A DNA stretch of 64,000 nt from assembly GCA_016869765.1 (NCBI GenBank), contig VGES01000003.1, forward strand, positions 1 to 64,000, read 5' to 3'. The position numbers and the translations under genes are program-made. This DNA is from Alphaproteobacteria bacterium (GTDB lineage: Bacteria > Pseudomonadota > Alphaproteobacteria > SHVP01). Positions 43,903 to 63,958 of the stretch are shown here, piece by piece (position 1 is the stretch's first letter; each line of letters opens with the position of its first letter). The notes below the pieces were generated by a model. The model saw nothing but the letters and a program-made list of their open reading frames with translations, did no database searches and had not been told where the DNA came from.

Positions 43903-44508
43903 CTATACCAAGAGAAGCCGATGGGTGCGGAGGAAATCGAGCAGCGGCAGCAGCGGCAGCCCGAGAATCGTGAAGTAGTCTCCTTGGATCCGTGAGAAAA
44001 GCTGGGCGCCGCGGCCTTCGAGGCGGTACGCCCCGACCGAACCCAGGATCGAGTCCCCCTCCGAGATCAGGTATTGCTCGATGAACTCGGGCGAAAGCGA
44101 TCGCATCGTCAGGGTGGCGCGATCGAGATGGCGCCAGATTATCGTCCCCTCGCGCGCGACCGTGACAGCCGACAGGAGCTGATGGTGTTTCCCCGATAGT
44201 GCCGACAGTTGCTGCCGGGCCGCCTCTCGGTTCTGGGGTTTATCGTACCAACGCCCCTCGCACACCAGCATCTGGTCAGCGCCGATCACGAATTCCTCCG
44301 GATGGGAGCCGGAGCGACGCAACGCCTTGAGATCGGCGAGTGCTTGGGCCACGTCGTGTGGTGGGCTGCCGTCTGCGGCCATGCTCGTCTTGATCGTATC
44401 TTCGTCGATTGCTGCTGGGTCGATCACGATCTCCAGCCCGGCGTTTCGCAGGAGGTTCGCCCGGCTCGCGCTGGCCGAGGCGAGGACGATCTTGGGCGAC
44501 TTGATCAC
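43903..44508 (-). CDS. Maf-like nucleotide pyrophosphatase
   Basis: The 201-residue member of the Maf/Ham1 fold hydrolyses non-canonical or canonical nucleoside triphosphates. It has IVLASASASRANLLRNAGL, the AIDEDTIK site, VIGADQMLVCEG and DSILGSVGAYRLEGRGAQLF. The start is a GTG at 44508 overlapping the ppsR stop by four bases (GTGA). The ppsR-maf-aroE-coaE-dnaQ order next to the origin is conserved in Alphaproteobacteria such as Caulobacter. Whether it is of YhdE or YceF type cannot be settled by eye. Confidence 0.92.
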   Translation of the reverse strand: MIKSPKIVLASASASRANLLRNAGLEIVIDPAAIDEDTIKTSMAADGSPPHDVAQALADLKALRRSGSHPEEFVIGADQMLVCEGRWYDKPQNREAARQQLSALSGKHHQLLSAVTVAREGTIIWRHLDRATLTMRSLSPEFIEQYLISEGDSILGSVGAYRLEGRGAQLFSRIQGDYFTILGLPLLPLLDFLRTHRLLLV

Positions 44509-45320
44509 GCCGACGCTTTGTGCGTCGCCAGGTGTTTCAGGATCACGGCGGCGGTTTCTTCGATCGAGCGACCCGTCGTGTCGATGACCGGCCAATTCAT
44601 GCGGCTGAACAAGCGTCGCGCCTCAGCAACCTCGTTCTTGATCGCCTCTTCATCGACATAGCTCGTGTCGCGTTCTTCCTTGAGCACGAGAAGGCGGCTG
44701 CGCCGAACTTGGGCCAGACGAGACACGCTGTTCGTGAGGCCCACGATCAAAGGGCCCGTGACCGCGAGAACCTCGTCGGGAACCTCCCGCTCCGGGACAA
44801 GGGGCACGTTGGCCGCTTTGATACCCCGGTTCGCGAGGTACATGCAGGTCGGTGTCTTCGAGGTGCGAGATACGCCGACCAGCACGACATCCGCTTGGTC
44901 CAGGTCGTGGAGCGACTGGCCATCGTCATGACTAAGACAGAACTGCATCGCGTCGATGCGCTCAAAGTAGTCGTCGTCCAAGGCATGCTGACGTCCGGGC
45001 TGATTCTTGCTCTCAGTGTTGAGAAAATCCCGGAGACTCGTGATCGCCGGGTTGAGCACATCGACGCACGGCAATTCCATGCTGCGACAGGCATTGACGA
45101 GATCGCGCTGCAACTGTCGATTGACCATCGTGAACATGACGACACCCGGATCTTCTTGAATGCCGTCGATCACCACCTGCAACTGTCCGGGTGTGCGCAC
45201 CATCGTCCAAAGTCGTTCGACGGCTTCATAACCCTCGAACTGCGTAATGGCGGCCTTGGCGACCATCTGGAGGGTTTCGCCGGTGGCATCGGATACGAGA
45301 TGAATATTGAACCGGGTCAT
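44505..45320 (-). CDS. ppsR: Pyruvate,phosphate dikinase / PEP synthase regulatory protein (DUF299)
   Basis: The 271-residue bifunctional kinase and pyrophosphorylase family controls PPDK or PEP synthase by threonine phosphorylation. It begins MTRFNIHLVSDATGETLQMVAKA, characteristic of the family, and carries the P-loop GVSRTSKTPTCMYLA at residues 149 onward. The C-terminal YVDEEAIKNEVAEARRLF is also typical. It is the gene known as RP001 in Rickettsia, next to the origin. It is the first gene of the leftward operon and faces away from the 396-base gap before hemE. Confidence 0.94.
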   Translation of the reverse strand: MTRFNIHLVSDATGETLQMVAKAAITQFEGYEAVERLWTMVRTPGQLQVVIDGIQEDPGVVMFTMVNRQLQRDLVNACRSMELPCVDVLNPAITSLRDFLNTESKNQPGRQHALDDDYFERIDAMQFCLSHDDGQSLHDLDQADVVLVGVSRTSKTPTCMYLANRGIKAANVPLVPEREVPDEVLAVTGPLIVGLTNSVSRLAQVRRSRLLVLKEERDTSYVDEEAIKNEVAEARRLFSRMNWPVIDTTGRSIEETAAVILKHLATHKASA

Positions 45321-45716
45321 CGCTCGAAGTTGGGGTTCTGGACAACGCTCTGTATAAGCCCCGGTACAAACCCCGCCATAAGCTCGGGACGAGATTCATC
45401 CCGATTCTGTCTTTGGACTGCGTGCAACAAGTCGCCGTTGTCAGCGACTCGACCACATCCTCGAACAACTGCAACAACCACGGTCTCGACCACCGTTATC
45501 CCCACTTCTCGCAACTCCCGTTGCGTCAGACTCCACGCACTCTATACGCAGTCTCAGGTCACCTATCCCGAGTCGGAAAGCGAAAAACCCGGCACCTCAT
45601 TCGTCCTACGTATGTTCTGTGGACAACCACTTATCCTCAGGACTCCACCGCCAAAATCTACTACTACCTTTCTCTTTATTTATTGATAGAGAAGTACAAG
45701 GTCTTTTCGATCACGA
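45321..45716. other. Probable chromosomal replication origin (oriC) between ppsR and hemE
   Basis: This 396-base gap is free of plausible genes and is flanked by divergent ppsR and hemE, the gene pair at the mapped origins of Caulobacter and Rickettsia. Near-consensus DnaA boxes, each one mismatch from TTATCCACA, are TTATCCCCA at 45496-45504, TTGTCCACA on the minus strand at 45618-45626 and TTATCCTCA at 45631-45639. A weaker one is at 45337-45345 (minus). Bases 45651-45710 are 41/60 A+T in an otherwise GC-rich region and could be the unwinding element. Six GANTC sites are present. The promoters of ppsR and hemE must also lie here. Confidence 0.8.
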
Positions 45717-46739
45717 ATGATCAAGCCATTTCTCGAGGCCTTGAGCGGGCACATACAGACACCGCCGCCGGTATGGTTCATGCGTCAGGCGGGGCGGTAT
45801 TTGCCCGAGTATCGAGACGTACGGACGCGGGCGGGCGGATTTCTCGAGCTTTGCTATTCGCCGCAATTGGCGAGTGAGGTGACGCTGCAACCAATCCGGA
45901 GATTCGGTTTCGACGCCGCAATTCTTTTTGCCGACATCCTGATCGTGCCGCACGCTCTTGGACAACGCGTCTGGTTTACCGAGGGTGAAGGCCCGAAGCT
46001 CGAACCGATTCGTGATCGAGCGGGGTTGACGCAATTGGCGATATCCCGGCTCGGGCCGGCCGTAGCGCCAATCCTCGAAACGGTGACTCGTGCCCGACAG
46101 CAACTACCGGCCAGGTGTGCGTTGATCGGGTTTGCTGGCGCCCCGTGGACCGTCGCGACGTATGTCGTCGAGGGTGGAAGCAGCCGGAGTTTCGAGACCT
46201 TGCGGCGCCTGACCTACCAGGATCCATCATTCGTCGACGGCCTGTTCGAGATCCTCATCGAGGCGTCGGTCGAATACCTTTCGGCTCAGATTGGTGCTGG
46301 AGCGGAAGCGATTCAACTTTTCGACACTTGGGCCGGTGCGCTCCCGGCCGCCGATCTCGAACGATGGTGTATCACGCCGACGAGGCGCATCGTTGAACAG
46401 TTGCGCCGCCGCCATCCCGGTGTTCCGATCATTGGATTTCCCCGAGGCATCGGACCATCCTTGGTGTGCTACGTCGAACGAACCGGTGTCGCGGCCGTGA
46501 GCATTGATTCGGGAATGCCCATCGAGTGGGTGGCGCGCGAGATTCAGCCGCTGGCCACGGTTCAGGGGAATCTCGATCCGATCTTGCTGCAGGTGGGTGG
46601 GCCCAGGATGATCGATGAGGTTCGACGAATCGTCGATGTTCTCGGCCGAGGTCCGTTCGTGTTCAACTTGGGTCACGGGATATTGCCGACCACCCCACCG
46701 GAGCACGTCGCGCAGGTCCTCGAAACCCTTCGCATGTGA
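45717..46739 (+). CDS. hemE: Uroporphyrinogen decarboxylase
   Basis: The 340-residue cytoplasmic enzyme converts uroporphyrinogen III to coproporphyrinogen III in haem synthesis. It begins with PPVWFMRQAGRYLPEYRDVR (signature 1, with the substrate-binding Arg). The catalytic Asp is in AAILFADILIVPHALG, GFAGAPWTVATYVVEGG is signature 2, and VQGNLDPILL and FNLGHGILP close the barrel. The ATG at 45717 fits; no strong ribosome-binding site is visible. It overlaps hemH by four bases (GTGA). Confidence 0.97.
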   Translation: MIKPFLEALSGHIQTPPPVWFMRQAGRYLPEYRDVRTRAGGFLELCYSPQLASEVTLQPIRRFGFDAAILFADILIVPHALGQRVWFTEGEGPKLEPIRDRAGLTQLAISRLGPAVAPILETVTRARQQLPARCALIGFAGAPWTVATYVVEGGSSRSFETLRRLTYQDPSFVDGLFEILIEASVEYLSAQIGAGAEAIQLFDTWAGALPAADLERWCITPTRRIVEQLRRRHPGVPIIGFPRGIGPSLVCYVERTGVAAVSIDSGMPIEWVAREIQPLATVQGNLDPILLQVGGPRMIDEVRRIVDVLGRGPFVFNLGHGILPTTPPEHVAQVLETLRM

Positions 46740-51920: not shown

Positions 51921-52892
51921 CTAGACCGTCAGAACCGTCGAACCGGTCGTGCTGCGGGCCTGCAGGTCACGATGCGCCTGGGCCGCCTCGCGCAGCGGGT
52001 AGCGCTGATTGACCTCGATCTTCACGGCGCCGCTCTTGACCACGGCAAACAAGTCGCTCGCGGTATCGAGCAACTCTTGGCGCGTCGACGTGTAGTGGCC
52101 GAGGGTGGGACGGGTCAGGAACAAGGAACCCTTGCCTGACAGGATACCGATGTTGAACGGCTCCACGGCGCCCGAAGATTGGCCGAAGCTGACCATCAGG
52201 CCGCGCGGACGCAGGCAATCGAGCGATTTCATGAACGTGTCCTTCCCGACGGAATCGAATACCACCGGAAGGCCGGCCTCCCCTGTGATTGCCCTCACAC
52301 GTGCCACGAAGTCCTCATCGCGATAGTTGATCACGTGATCGCAGCCGTGAGCCTTGGCGAGCGCCGCTTTTGCCGCGCTGCCGACGGTTCCGATGACCGT
52401 GGCGCCGAGGTGCTTCGCCCATTGACTGGCGATCAACCCGACACCGCCGGCGGCGGCGTGGAACAAGATCATGTCGCCCTTTTTCACCGGAAAGATGCGG
52501 CGGATCAGGTATTGGACGGTGCAGCCTTTGAGCATCATCGAGGCGGCCTGCTCGTCGGTGATGCCGGCAGGGATCGGGACCAGGAGCCAGGCCGGGATCG
52601 TTCGACGTTCGGCATAACTGCCGAGCGCCGAATGATAGGCAACGCGGTCCCCCGGCTTCAGGCCGGTGACGCCCTCACCGACCGCCTCGACGACGCCGGC
52701 CCCTTCGGACCCGAGAATTGTCGGAAGCGGGATGGGATAGAGGCCAGACCGCTGATAGGTGTCGAGATAGTTGAGGCCGATCGCGGTGTGCCGAATGAGG
52801 GCCTGACCAGGTCCCGGATGATCGACCGTGACATCGTCCCAGGCAAGGACCTCCGGGCCGCCGGTGCGGTGGATGCGTATCGCTTTGGTCAT
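51921..52892 (-). CDS. Quinone oxidoreductase-like MDR enzyme (array copy 1)
   Basis: The 323-residue zinc-free medium-chain reductase of the QOR (zeta-crystallin-like) type reduces quinones or enones with NADPH. It has IGLNYLDTYQRSGLYP, the GSEGAGVVEAVG segment and the cofactor loop HAAAGGVGLIASQWAKHLGA, with NYRDEDF ahead of FDSVGKDTF. This copy is closest to canonical qor. It is the last of five head-to-tail paralogues and is 18 bases after copy 2. The PAS gene follows after five bases. Confidence 0.93.
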   Translation of the reverse strand: MTKAIRIHRTGGPEVLAWDDVTVDHPGPGQALIRHTAIGLNYLDTYQRSGLYPIPLPTILGSEGAGVVEAVGEGVTGLKPGDRVAYHSALGSYAERRTIPAWLLVPIPAGITDEQAASMMLKGCTVQYLIRRIFPVKKGDMILFHAAAGGVGLIASQWAKHLGATVIGTVGSAAKAALAKAHGCDHVINYRDEDFVARVRAITGEAGLPVVFDSVGKDTFMKSLDCLRPRGLMVSFGQSSGAVEPFNIGILSGKGSLFLTRPTLGHYTSTRQELLDTASDLFAVVKSGAVKIEVNQRYPLREAAQAHRDLQARSTTGSTVLTV

Positions 52893-52910
52893 CGTTCCTT
52901 CCTTGATCGT

Positions 52911-53879
52911 TCAGACCGCGAGCACGAAGGCCCCGGTCGATTGGCGTGTTTCGAGTTCATGATGGGCTTGGCCGGCGTCGCGCAGGGGGAGCACCTTGCC
53001 GACGGGAATCTTGACGGTACCGTCCGCGACGGCGGCAAAGAAGTCGTTGGCCGTCGTAAGCAGGTCCGCCCGCGTCCCCGTGTAAGACTGCAACGTGGTC
53101 CGGATGACGTAACGATCGTAGGGAACTTTGTTGAACTGTTCGGCACTCACGGGGCCCGACGCGCCGCCGAACATGACGAGAACGCCGTGCGGGGCCAGGG
53201 AGGCGGTCGAAGCTGCAAACGTCTCCTTGCCGACCGAATCGTAGACGACATCGACGCCCCGACCATCGGTGATGGCCGCTATTCGTTTCGCGGCGTCCTC
53301 TTGCGTATAGACGATCGCGTGATCGCAACCGTTTCGCCGCGCCAGTTCGGCTTTCGCGTGACTGCTGACGGTGCCGATGACGGTCGCCCCGAGAGCCTTC
53401 GCCCATTGGCACACCATGAGGCCGACGCCCCCCGCGGCCGCGTGGATCAGGATGCGATCCCCGCGCTTCACGCGATAGGTCTGGCGCAACAAATATTGCG
53501 CCGTCAGTCCCTTGAGATAGCCCGCGGCCCCCTGTTCGTCGCTGAGGTGCGGTGGCAGCACGACGGCGTCACGGGCCGGCAACAAACGAGCCTCGGCGTA
53601 GGCCCCCTCGGGTGGGGAAACGTACGTGACACGGTCGCCGGCCTTCAGATCGGCGACCTCGGGTCCGATCGCTTCGACCACCCCGACCCCTTCCCAACCG
53701 ATGATCTTCGAGGGTGGCAGCGGAATGACGCCGCGGCGAAACAGCGTGTCGAGGAAGTTCACGCCGACGGCGGTTTGGCGCAGGCGAACCTGACCCGGCC
53801 CGGGGGCCGCGACACTCACGTCCTCCCAGGAAAACGCATCGGGTCCCCCCGTGCGATGTAGCACCAGGGCTTTGCTCAT
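52911..53879 (-). CDS. Quinone oxidoreductase-like MDR enzyme (array copy 2)
   Basis: The 322-residue paralogue has VGVNFLDTLFRRGVIPLPPSK in pieces (the usual Tyr is replaced by Phe), WEGVGVVEAIGPEV, HAAAGGVGLMVCQWAKALGATVIGTV and VYDSVGKETFAAS. No zinc ligands of alcohol dehydrogenase are present. The ATG at 53879 gives MSKALVLHRTGGPDAFSWED, matching the other copies. The substrate-facing segments differ clearly from copies 1 and 3-5, suggesting separate substrates. Confidence 0.92.
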   Translation of the reverse strand: MSKALVLHRTGGPDAFSWEDVSVAAPGPGQVRLRQTAVGVNFLDTLFRRGVIPLPPSKIIGWEGVGVVEAIGPEVADLKAGDRVTYVSPPEGAYAEARLLPARDAVVLPPHLSDEQGAAGYLKGLTAQYLLRQTYRVKRGDRILIHAAAGGVGLMVCQWAKALGATVIGTVSSHAKAELARRNGCDHAIVYTQEDAAKRIAAITDGRGVDVVYDSVGKETFAASTASLAPHGVLVMFGGASGPVSAEQFNKVPYDRYVIRTTLQSYTGTRADLLTTANDFFAAVADGTVKIPVGKVLPLRDAGQAHHELETRQSTGAFVLAV

Positions 53880-53964
53880 GATGGCCCTCCCCGGGACGGA
53901 CCAAACACGGCGCGGCCGAACACGTCAAGCCGAGGGTCGTGGACGGCCGGACACGAATACGCGG

Positions 53965-54936
53965 TCAAACGGTGAGCACCGCGGCGCCGAGAATGCGCCT
54001 CGCTTCGAGGTCGCGATGGGCGTCTGCCGCCGCCGCGAGGGGGTAGGTGCGGTCGATGCGAGGCCAAAGGACGATTCGTGCGAGGGCATCGAAGTAGGCC
54101 TCGGCCGCGCGCAACAATGTCGCCCGTTCCGCAGTCACCGTTCGCACGGTGCCCCGGGTGACGAACGAACAGCGCGGAATGTCGGCGAAGGCGAGATTGG
54201 GTAGCGGGCCAGAGGCGAGGCCATAGGTGACCACGGTGCCATAGGGTGCGACCGCCGCGAGAGAGCCCTTGAAGGTCGTCCGGCCGACCGCATCGTAAAC
54301 GTAGGTGGCGCCGCGACCGCCGGTGAGTTCCTTGGTTCGCGCCACGAAGTCTTCGCGACTGTAGATCACCGGATGATGGCACCCGAACTCACGCACCAAT
54401 GCGGCCTTTTCGTCGGTGCTGACGGTGCCGATGACGGTGGCGCCGAGGTGTCGCGCCCATTGGACGAGGATCAAACCGACGCCCCCGGCGGCGGCGTGCA
54501 CGAGGACGACGTCGCCAGCTTTGACTTTGGTGACATCGAAGAGCAGATGCCAGGCGGTCAATCCTTTCATGAACGTGCCGGCCGCTACGATGTCGCTCAC
54601 GCTATCGGGCAACACGACGAGATCGTTCGCGGCGATCAAGCGCGACTCGGCGTAGGAGCCCTCGGTGAGCGGGTAGGCGACGCGCTGGCCGAGCGAGAAA
54701 CCTCGGACCCCGGGGCCAATTGCTTCGATCACACCGGCGGCCTCCACCCCGAGCACGGCGGGGAGTTTCGGCTTCACGAAATGCGTACCGGCTCGAAGGT
54801 ATGTGTCGAGGTAGTTGACGCCGCAAACCGTCTGGCGGAGTCGGACCTGTCCGGCGCCCGGCTCGCCCACGGAGATGTCTTCCCAACGCATCACCTCGGG
54901 TCCGCCGGTCTCGTGAATGACGATGGCGCGGGTCAT
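53965..54936 (-). CDS. Quinone oxidoreductase-like MDR enzyme (array copy 3)
   Basis: The 323-residue paralogue starts at ATG 54936 with MTRAIVIHETGGPEVMRWED. It shows CGVNYLDTYLRAG, HAAAGGVGLILVQWARHLGATVIGTV in two parts and VYDAVGRTTFKGS. The open frame continues upstream into copy 4 out of its true frame, so the apparent 674-codon fusion is not real. It is separated from copy 2 by 85 bases, the longest gap inside the array; a promoter may lie there. Confidence 0.92.
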   Translation of the reverse strand: MTRAIVIHETGGPEVMRWEDISVGEPGAGQVRLRQTVCGVNYLDTYLRAGTHFVKPKLPAVLGVEAAGVIEAIGPGVRGFSLGQRVAYPLTEGSYAESRLIAANDLVVLPDSVSDIVAAGTFMKGLTAWHLLFDVTKVKAGDVVLVHAAAGGVGLILVQWARHLGATVIGTVSTDEKAALVREFGCHHPVIYSREDFVARTKELTGGRGATYVYDAVGRTTFKGSLAAVAPYGTVVTYGLASGPLPNLAFADIPRCSFVTRGTVRTVTAERATLLRAAEAYFDALARIVLWPRIDRTYPLAAAADAHRDLEARRILGAAVLTV

Positions 54937-54938
54937 GG

Positions 54939-55913
54939 TCACCCCTGAACCGACAGGACGGTCGAACCGACCGTTCGCCGCGATTCGAGGTCGCGATGCG
55001 CTTGCGCGACATCCTTCAGCGAATAGCGCTGGCCGATTCGCACCCGCACGGCACCACGCCGGATGACGTCGAACAGCGCATTCGCTGCCGTCAACAGGGC
55101 CTGCCTGCCGGCGACGTGGCCGGGCAACGTCGGATAAATCAAGAAGCGATCGATCGGGAGCCGGCTCGCCACGTCGCGGGGCGCGGGTCCAGAGGCTGCG
55201 CCGTACGAGGCGATCGTCCCGAACGGGGCCACGAGGGAAACCGATTTCTCGAACGTCGCCTTGCCCACGGCGTCGAACACCGCGGTCACGCCGCGGCCGC
55301 CGGTCAGCTCTTTGACCCGGGCCACGAAATCTTCGTGGGTGTAGTCGATGACGTGGTCGCAGCCGTAGGCCCGCGCCAACGCGGATTTTTCCTGCGATCC
55401 GACGGTCCCGATAACCGTCGCGCCCAGCGCCTTGGCCCACTGGCAGACGAAAAGACCGAGGCCGCCGGCGGCCGCGTGATAGAGCACGGTGTCGCCTGCC
55501 CCGATCGTGCGCACCCGCGCAAGCAGCATATGTGCGGTCATGCCCTTGAGCAGCGAGGCCGCGGCGACGTCGTCGCTGATGTCCTCTGGCAGAGGGACGA
55601 GGCGCTCGGCTTGGATCAGTCGAACCTCGGCGTAGGAACCCATGACCGAGGCGTAAGCGACGCGCTGACCGACGTGGACCTCCGTGACGTCGGCGCCGAC
55701 GGCCTCGACGACGCCAGCCCCTTCGCGGCCGAGAATGGCCGGCAACGGACCGGGTGGGTAGTCGCCACGGCGAAAGTTGGTGTCGATGTAGTTGAGGCCC
55801 GAAAACGTGTGGCGCAGGCGCACCTCCCCGGGGCCCGGGTTGCCGACGACCATGGGTTCCCAGCGAAAGTTTTCCGGTCCACCGACCTGGTGGAGCACGA
55901 CGGCGTTGGGCAT
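54939..55913 (-). CDS. Quinone oxidoreductase-like MDR enzyme (array copy 4)
   Basis: The 324-residue paralogue has MPNAVVLHQVGGPENFRWE at ATG 55913 (an upstream TTG would add two residues), FSGLNYIDTNFRRGDYP, HAAAGGLGLFVCQWAKALGA and FDAVGKATFEKS. In the cofactor loop AAGGLGL replaces AAGGVGL, a mild change. It starts eight bases after copy 5 and ends two bases before copy 3, so it is clearly cotranscribed. Confidence 0.92.
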   Translation of the reverse strand: MPNAVVLHQVGGPENFRWEPMVVGNPGPGEVRLRHTFSGLNYIDTNFRRGDYPPGPLPAILGREGAGVVEAVGADVTEVHVGQRVAYASVMGSYAEVRLIQAERLVPLPEDISDDVAAASLLKGMTAHMLLARVRTIGAGDTVLYHAAAGGLGLFVCQWAKALGATVIGTVGSQEKSALARAYGCDHVIDYTHEDFVARVKELTGGRGVTAVFDAVGKATFEKSVSLVAPFGTIASYGAASGPAPRDVASRLPIDRFLIYPTLPGHVAGRQALLTAANALFDVIRRGAVRVRIGQRYSLKDVAQAHRDLESRRTVGSTVLSVQG

Positions 55914-55921
55914 GCGCAATC

Positions 55922-56887
55922 CTATGGCTTGAGGATGATCGAGCCGGTGGTCTTGCGACCCTCGAGGTCACGATGCGCCTGAGCGCCATCTCTGAGCGCG
56001 TAGCGGTGATTGACCTCGATCTTAATGATCTTCTTGGCGACCAGGTCGAAGAACTCGGCCGCCGCCGCGCGATACTCCTCGGGTCGTCCGATCAGAGTCA
56101 TGATCGAGCCTTTGGTGTAGCCGATCGAGGGCGGAAGGTCGGCAATGGTCATGTCCGAGGGGCCGGATGCTGATCCAAACGTGCAGAGCGTGCCGTAGGT
56201 GGCGACGCACTTGATCGAATCCTTCACGGTCGTCTTCCCCACGGCATCGTAGACCGCGATACATCCCGATCCGCCCGTGATCGTCTTGACCCGATCGACG
56301 AAATTCTCCCGGGTGTAGACGATGGTGTGAGCCGCCCCATGATTGCTCGCCGCCTTGGCCTTGTCTTCGCTCGACACCGTGCCGATCAGGCGAACGCCGA
56401 GGTGGCGCGCCCACTGGCAGGCGAACAACCCGACGCCGCCAGCGGCTGCATGGAACAGCACCCAATCCCCCGGCCTCACTTTGTGCGAGCGGTTGAACAG
56501 GTGTTGGACGGTGATTCCCTTCGTGATGCCGGCGGCGGCCTCGTCATCCGACACGCCCTCCGGGATCCTCACCAACAGGTTTTCGGCGATCGTGCGCGAT
56601 TCGCAATAGGCGCCGCGGGCCAGTGGATAGCAGACGCGATCGCCGGGCTTGAAGGTCCGTGCCGCAGAACCGACCGCTTCGACCACGCCTGCCCCCTCAA
56701 CGCCGAGGATGGCGGGGAAGACCGTGCCGGGATACGTGCCCGAACGATGGTAGGTGTCGATGTAATTGACGCCGATCGCCGTGTGGCGGATCGAGACCTC
56801 ATGGGCGGCCGGGGCCGCGACGCTGACATCGTCCCATGCCAGGACGTCGACCCCGCCTGCCTTTTGCGCGCGCAATGCTTTGACCAC
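55922..56887 (-). CDS. Quinone oxidoreductase-like MDR enzyme (array copy 5, first in the operon)
   Basis: The 321-residue paralogue has a GTG start at 56887 with GGGAGG just upstream, giving MVKALRAQKAGGVDVLAWDD. It contains IGVNYIDTYHRSGTYPG, HAAAGGVGLFACQWARHLGVRLIGTV in parts and VYDAVGKTTVKDS. Being the first gene of the run, its upstream gap of 72 bases to ogt is the best place for the promoter of the array. No close zinc-binding residues. Physiological substrate unknown. Confidence 0.92.
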   Translation of the reverse strand: MVKALRAQKAGGVDVLAWDDVSVAAPAAHEVSIRHTAIGVNYIDTYHRSGTYPGTVFPAILGVEGAGVVEAVGSAARTFKPGDRVCYPLARGAYCESRTIAENLLVRIPEGVSDDEAAAGITKGITVQHLFNRSHKVRPGDWVLFHAAAGGVGLFACQWARHLGVRLIGTVSSEDKAKAASNHGAAHTIVYTRENFVDRVKTITGGSGCIAVYDAVGKTTVKDSIKCVATYGTLCTFGSASGPSDMTIADLPPSIGYTKGSIMTLIGRPEEYRAAAAEFFDLVAKKIIKIEVNHRYALRDGAQAHRDLEGRKTTGSIILKP

Positions 56888-60227: not shown

Positions 60228-60626
60228 GTGGACGAAGCGACGAAGAAGATCGCCGACGGCAAGAATCCGGCAACAGCGGTCAACGACCCGGCCCCCTACT
60301 ACTATCGCCACGTGTTCTGCTGCGTGAACGAACGGGCGGCGGATCACCCGCGTGGTTGCTGCAAAGCCAAGGGCGCCCCCGAGCTGCGCGATTACATGAA
60401 AGACCGAGTGCGCGAGCTCAAGCTCAAGCGCGTACGCATCAACCAGTCGGGATGTCTCGATCGCTGCGAGCTGGGCGCGACGATGGTGATTTATCCCGAG
60501 GGGGTCTGGTACACCTACCGCAACAAGCAGGACGTCGACGAAATCCTGCAAAAGCATCTGGTCGAGGGCCAGCGCGTCGCGCGGCTGCTGTTGCTCACCG
60601 ACCAGAAGACGCCGCGGACATCCTAA
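60228..60626 (+). CDS. Thioredoxin-like 2Fe-2S ferredoxin
   Basis: The 132-residue protein has HVFCCVNERAADHPRGCC and INQSGCLDRCELGATMVIYPEG (in parts), giving cysteines 31/32, 44/45, 76 and 80. This fits the C-x11/12-C...C-x3-C pattern of thioredoxin-like [2Fe-2S] ferredoxins related to the NuoE C-terminal domain. An extra cysteine beside each of the first two ligands leaves the exact pair uncertain. The start is GTG at 60228 after AGGAAGG. A WYTYRNKQDVDEILQKHL tail is typical of the family. mnmE follows. Confidence 0.88.
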   Translation: MDEATKKIADGKNPATAVNDPAPYYYRHVFCCVNERAADHPRGCCKAKGAPELRDYMKDRVRELKLKRVRINQSGCLDRCELGATMVIYPEGVWYTYRNKQDVDEILQKHLVEGQRVARLLLLTDQKTPRTS

Positions 60627-63938: not shown

Positions 63939-63958
63939 ACTGTTTCACGTGAAACAGT
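63939..63958. promoter_or_regulatory. parS centromere site (ParB binding)
   Basis: TGTTTCACGTGAAACA at 63941-63956 is a perfect match to the universal parS consensus, and the dyad extends to a 20-bp perfect palindrome at 63939-63958. It lies between mnmG and the presumed rsmG-parA-parB genes, the usual parS place near the origin. ParB binds it and spreads to organise and segregate the origin region. Confidence 0.93.

Follow-up and report, generated by a model that had tools for sequence, protein, structure and literature searches.

The window, a 64,000-nucleotide stretch of alphaproteobacterial DNA, lies on a 114-kb contig (C3) of a draft assembly of 164 contigs and 3.99 Mb that is 99.6% complete. 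Within it the divergent genes ppsR (COG1806/DUF299; 44505-45320, minus strand; NF003742, 331.8 bits) and hemE (45717-46739, plus strand; TIGR01464, 379 bits) enclose an intergenic region of 396 bp (45321-45716). A sequence-only reading of this DNA had described a gene-free gap with divergent flanks, with which the ORF list and the NCBIfam matches of both boundary genes agree. The gap is gene-free in the ordinary sense; two plus-strand ORFs that cross it (44520-45686 and 45413-45877) were rejected as genes, one being antisense to ppsR and the other overlapping hemE out of frame. Among the genes examined, ppsR-maf-aroE-coaE on the left and hemE-hemH-rho-mnmE-mnmG-parAB on the right all point away from the gap. 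The parS site that had been reported 18 kb away was found as a perfect copy, TGTTTCACGTGAAACA (63941-63956, plus strand), at 18.2 kb from the gap; parA (contig positions 64559-65380) and parB (65377-66303), both named from their translations, lie just outside the window.

With 48% A+T, where the mean is 36%, the gap ranks fourth of 2277 windows on the 114-kb contig. Its last 60 bp before hemE, previously singled out as A+T-rich, are among the top five of 11416 sixty-base windows on the contig, with a value of 67% and not the 68% given before. A search of the gap for inverted and direct repeats returned short pairs only, at chance level. Three DnaA boxes with one mismatch each occupy exactly the positions assigned to them by the sequence-only reading: TTATCCCCA (45496-45504, plus strand), TTGTCCACA (45618-45626, minus strand) and TTATCCTCA (45631-45639, plus strand). 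The weaker box called at 45337 corresponds to TTGTCCAGA (45337-45345, minus strand), a DnaA-box-like site with two mismatches, and the exact consensus TTATCCACA has no copy in the gap. Shuffling of the gap predicts 0.09 one-mismatch boxes, compared with the three seen. The 114-kb contig has eight such boxes in total, and every 400-bp window of it with three overlaps the gap. One-mismatch boxes number 162 genome-wide, fewer than the 268 matches of a reversed-pattern control, so boxes alone cannot locate an origin and the argument rests on their clustering and context. In 54 synteny-selected gaps of named relatives the mean is 2.11 boxes, versus 0.10 in shuffles.

Toward hemE, the TTATCCTCA box is followed by a degenerate box position, by CTACTACTA and then by A+T-rich DNA. 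The degenerate position, GACTCCACC (45641-45649, plus strand), is a weak, putative second box with four mismatches that aligns with an ATCCAC block conserved in the relatives. CTACTACTA (45658-45666, plus strand) places three perfect DnaA-trios, 3'-GAT-5', on the minus strand; none is expected in shuffles, and 30 Markov replicas made from the contig never produced the combination of box and CTACTACTA. The A+T-rich stretch at 45667-45700 is, from its sequence, the presumed DNA unwinding element, and the TTATCCTCA box, whose position is homologous in relatives, its presumed anchor. The only other CTACTACTA of the window, at 60296-60304, has no DnaA box (up to one mismatch) within 40 bases upstream.

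This arrangement resembles the basal unwinding system (BUS) of B. subtilis, for which 3'-GAT-5' is the DnaA-trio consensus (PMC8287927). Both comprise a box, a trio repeat on the opposite strand and A+T-rich DNA in the same orientation (PMC6669920, PMC8287927, PMC10721633). The box at 45631-45639 has few mismatches and is oriented toward the repeat, and CTACTACTA at 45658-45666 provides the minimum of at least three 3'-NAN-5' trios. The two differ in spacing, since 18 nt separate the one-mismatch box from the trios here, whereas the published BUS search allows at most 16 nt (PMC8287927); from the four-mismatch tandem box at 45641 the distance is 8 nt.

Relatives keep the ppsR-gap-hemE order, and most of their gaps contain DnaA boxes and, adjoining hemE, an element that can be aligned. 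A model of this element (R1), built from sequence alone on 15 relatives and with the present genome excluded from training, gave a single match at E<=10 in the 3.99-Mb assembly, at C3:45643-45688 (plus strand). At 11.8 bits (E 0.96) this is a weak score, and the weight lies on the location: one match in 4 Mb, at the predicted place. Searched against 192 genomes of the class, R1 matched 75 at E<=0.01, nearly always once per genome. The best 30 loci from these 192 genomes all lie directly upstream of hemE; 18 come from genomes that were not used in training, and for 14 of the 18 the genus, too, was absent from training. Synteny was examined at 80 named loci picked by hemE alone, 79 of which had sufficient upstream sequence. 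The element is present at 48 of the 55 loci with ppsR-hemE synteny and at 4 of the 24 that lack this synteny (P 2e-9, Fisher test), a test that is partly confounded by phylogeny because the non-syntenic loci are mostly Rhodobacterales.

Alignment of 85 matches from 83 loci shows that box and A+T-rich part are separated by a block with a period of 3, repeated about five times. Its plus strand is [A/C/T]-A-C, G being nearly absent, which in the B. subtilis register becomes 3'-GNT-5' with a variable middle base; an alternative register would read the trio on the plus strand as 3'-CAN-5'. In ungapped held-out elements, 3'-GNT-5' runs are well above shuffles and 3'-NAN-5' runs are not enriched. The 54 gaps selected by synteny only contain 3'-GNT-5' runs of at least five in 16 cases (16/54, against 0.2% in shuffles) and on the opposite strand in none (0/54). 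Runs of at least five 3'-NAN-5' occur in 26 of the same gaps versus 28% in shuffles, a far weaker excess. The three perfect 3'-GAT-5' trios of the present genome are shared with B. subtilis, whereas the class-wide trio, with its variable middle base, differs.

The DnaA protein differs as well. In B. subtilis DnaA, Asn187 reads the central adenine, and Arg202 and Glu228 read the guanine (PMC10721633). When 28 sampled alphaproteobacterial DnaA proteins were mapped by alignment to chain 8btg_A, the Asn187 position was Tyr in 27/28 and Phe in 1/28, the Arg202 position was Lys in 28/28, and Glu228 was kept. We tentatively suggest that alphaproteobacterial origins may use a variant opening code, 3'-GNT-5' with a free centre, in company with replacement of Asn187 by Tyr or Phe and retention of Glu228, and that the element can serve as a marker of the origin in draft genomes, keeping its place when hemE moves; we regard this as a real possibility and not as an expectation. 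The association of trio and DnaA residues is, at the level of sequence, a correlation across one class and possibly the outcome of a single evolutionary event. A literature search for DnaA-trios in alphaproteobacteria found no paper, the match it gave being concerned with epsilonproteobacteria.

It is unlikely, though worth serious consideration, that the origin lies here but operates by no DnaA-trio or BUS mechanism, the period-3 repeat being the site of another protein or a structure. The DnaA homologs that the main text of the source gives as tested for BUS activity include no alphaproteobacterial member (PMC8287927). Across the class the repeat shows no conserved A at its centre, and Tyr or Phe stands in place of Asn187. 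However, order, orientation and strand all match the B. subtilis BUS, the repeat is strand-specific in the synteny-selected gaps, and the copy in the present genome consists of perfect GAT trios.

A different account would give the conserved element a role in hemE transcription, as a regulatory or leader sequence (a promoter under DnaA-box control), and no role as an origin. In most genomes hemE does follow the element at a distance of 14-198 nt, and A+T-rich DNA ahead of a gene would suit a promoter as well. Yet of the 24 hemE loci outside ppsR synteny, 20 are without the element, and at one locus (L176, 1733-2995, a Minwuia MAG) an ORF of about 366 aa intervenes between element and hemE. R1 matches 8 of 12 genomes, mostly Rhodobacterales, from which hemE has left the locus, and 7 of these 8 matches are at a maf or rho locus, three with E<0.001 and four weak (E 0.16-0.38) yet still beside maf and/or rho. 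In the one moved-hemE genome examined for it, hemJ stands between the element and rho. The Rhodobacterales loci L234, L235, L236 and L238-L241 have hemE relocated and the element still between maf or ppsR-maf and hemJ/rho. Around the remaining match, in Roseovarius (L237, E 0.156), none of ppsR, maf, rho and hemE is present, and it was discounted as a probable chance hit. Since the element remains at the maf/rho locus after hemE leaves, it tracks the locus and is not a hemE leader; the skew minima of three relatives, given below, also coincide with this locus. The hemE-leader account is strongly disfavoured and, in our estimation, very improbable, and a hemE promoter may overlap the origin that we favour here.

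GC skew was sampled as 20 stretches of 20 kb per chromosome in three near-complete relatives (G021, G018 and G023). In each, the one slot of the 20 that contains the gap also holds the best-fit origin boundary, the skew of G023 being weak, and the interval of the sampled minimum holds the gap and excludes dnaA. The dnaA gene is at 143 (G021), 257 (G018) and 3226352 (G023) on the respective contigs, and in G021 the gap is at 2.209 Mb as against the dnaA start at 143. The partial contig G006:C2 is ambiguous, with a fitted boundary at about 0.40-0.45 Mb that is nearer to dnaA (0.483 Mb) than to the gap (0.604 Mb). Cumulative skew on the present 114-kb contig is weak and noisy, and the contig is too short to decide. 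An origin at dnaA-dnaN, as in many bacteria, with the hemE gap a relic or secondary DnaA-binding region, could draw on G006:C2 and on the location of dnaA on another contig (C1:88443-89831), but is hardly credible given the three skew minima, a 244-bp dnaA-dnaN gap with no DnaA box within two mismatches, a rhodanese-like ORF that ends 2 bp before dnaA, and the lack of any second R1 site in the genome at E<=10.

The sequence-only reading had named the gap between ppsR and hemE as the origin. Synteny, the box cluster, the conserved BUS-like element, the sampled skew minima of three near-complete relatives and the box-less dnaA-dnaN region all support that claim. We consider it highly probable that the gap at 45321-45716 is the chromosomal oriC and a positional ortholog of the Caulobacter and Rickettsia origins. 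Those two, Caulobacter crescentus Cori and Rickettsia prowazekii oriC, have the same boundary genes, hemE and COG1806/ppsR, and likewise possess several DnaA boxes, an A+T-rich segment beside the cluster and a size of about 400 bp or more (PMC1914354). Such origins are expected to have at least about 300 bp between hemE and COG1806, a cluster of DnaA boxes and an A+T content above the genome average; the present region measures 396 bp and has the other two features. With dnaA-dnaN-linked bacterial origins it would share DnaA-box-based initiation, whereas the dnaA-dnaN region is here without boxes.

We propose that DnaA would bind the box cluster (45496, 45618 and 45631) and that a DnaA oligomer, starting at the 45631 anchor box, would grow in the direction of hemE and onto the minus-strand repeat opposite CTACTACTA (45658-45666). 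The adjacent A+T-rich stretch would then open and the helicase would be loaded, initiating replication. The mechanism of the B. subtilis BUS would, by analogy, apply in this organism. A probable replication origin is thereby placed for an uncultured alphaproteobacterial lineage, and a compact sequence model picks out the origin in many alphaproteobacterial genomes that are fragmented, also where hemE has been relocated. The trio pattern and the changed DnaA residue together pose a testable question, namely whether a different base-capture code is in use outside the lineages tested so far.

The gap differs from the Caulobacter and Rickettsia origins in its regulatory sites. It contains no CtrA site of the form TTAA-N7-TTAA, nor any under the loose pattern TTWW-N7-TTWW, and no IHF site (WATCAN5WTR). 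The 99.6%-complete genome yielded no CtrA gene above the model cut-off and no GcrA gene. CtrA regulation of the gap was rejected on these two counts, the missing sites and the lack of a gene above the cut-off. The best CtrA match (L226) was rejected too: its score is higher for a response regulator of the heavy-metal type, and it adjoins a histidine kinase. CtrA sites characterise the Caulobacter subtype and are reported to be absent in some relatives (PMC1914354). The locus is very probably, to judge by its sequence, an alphaproteobacterial origin of the hemE/ppsR-flanked kind that lacks the Caulobacter subtype's CtrA and IHF sites. Within the family the occurrence of CtrA is patchy: the gene was found in G002, G004, G006, G007 and G008, and not in G001, G003, G005 or G009.

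A CcrM-like methylase with a RAMA domain is present in the genome (618 bits, where the curated cut-off is 830). GANTC is presumably its site, and timing control by CcrM would operate here without CtrA input. The gap is enriched in GANTC, with 6 sites where 396 bp of the contig hold 1.4 on average; 10 of 1139 windows on the contig reach 6. Elsewhere near the candidate origin, between rho and mnmE, the minus strand carries a tandem of paralogous quinone oxidoreductase-like genes (51921-56887), of the zinc-type alcohol dehydrogenase family; five were counted by eye from the translations.
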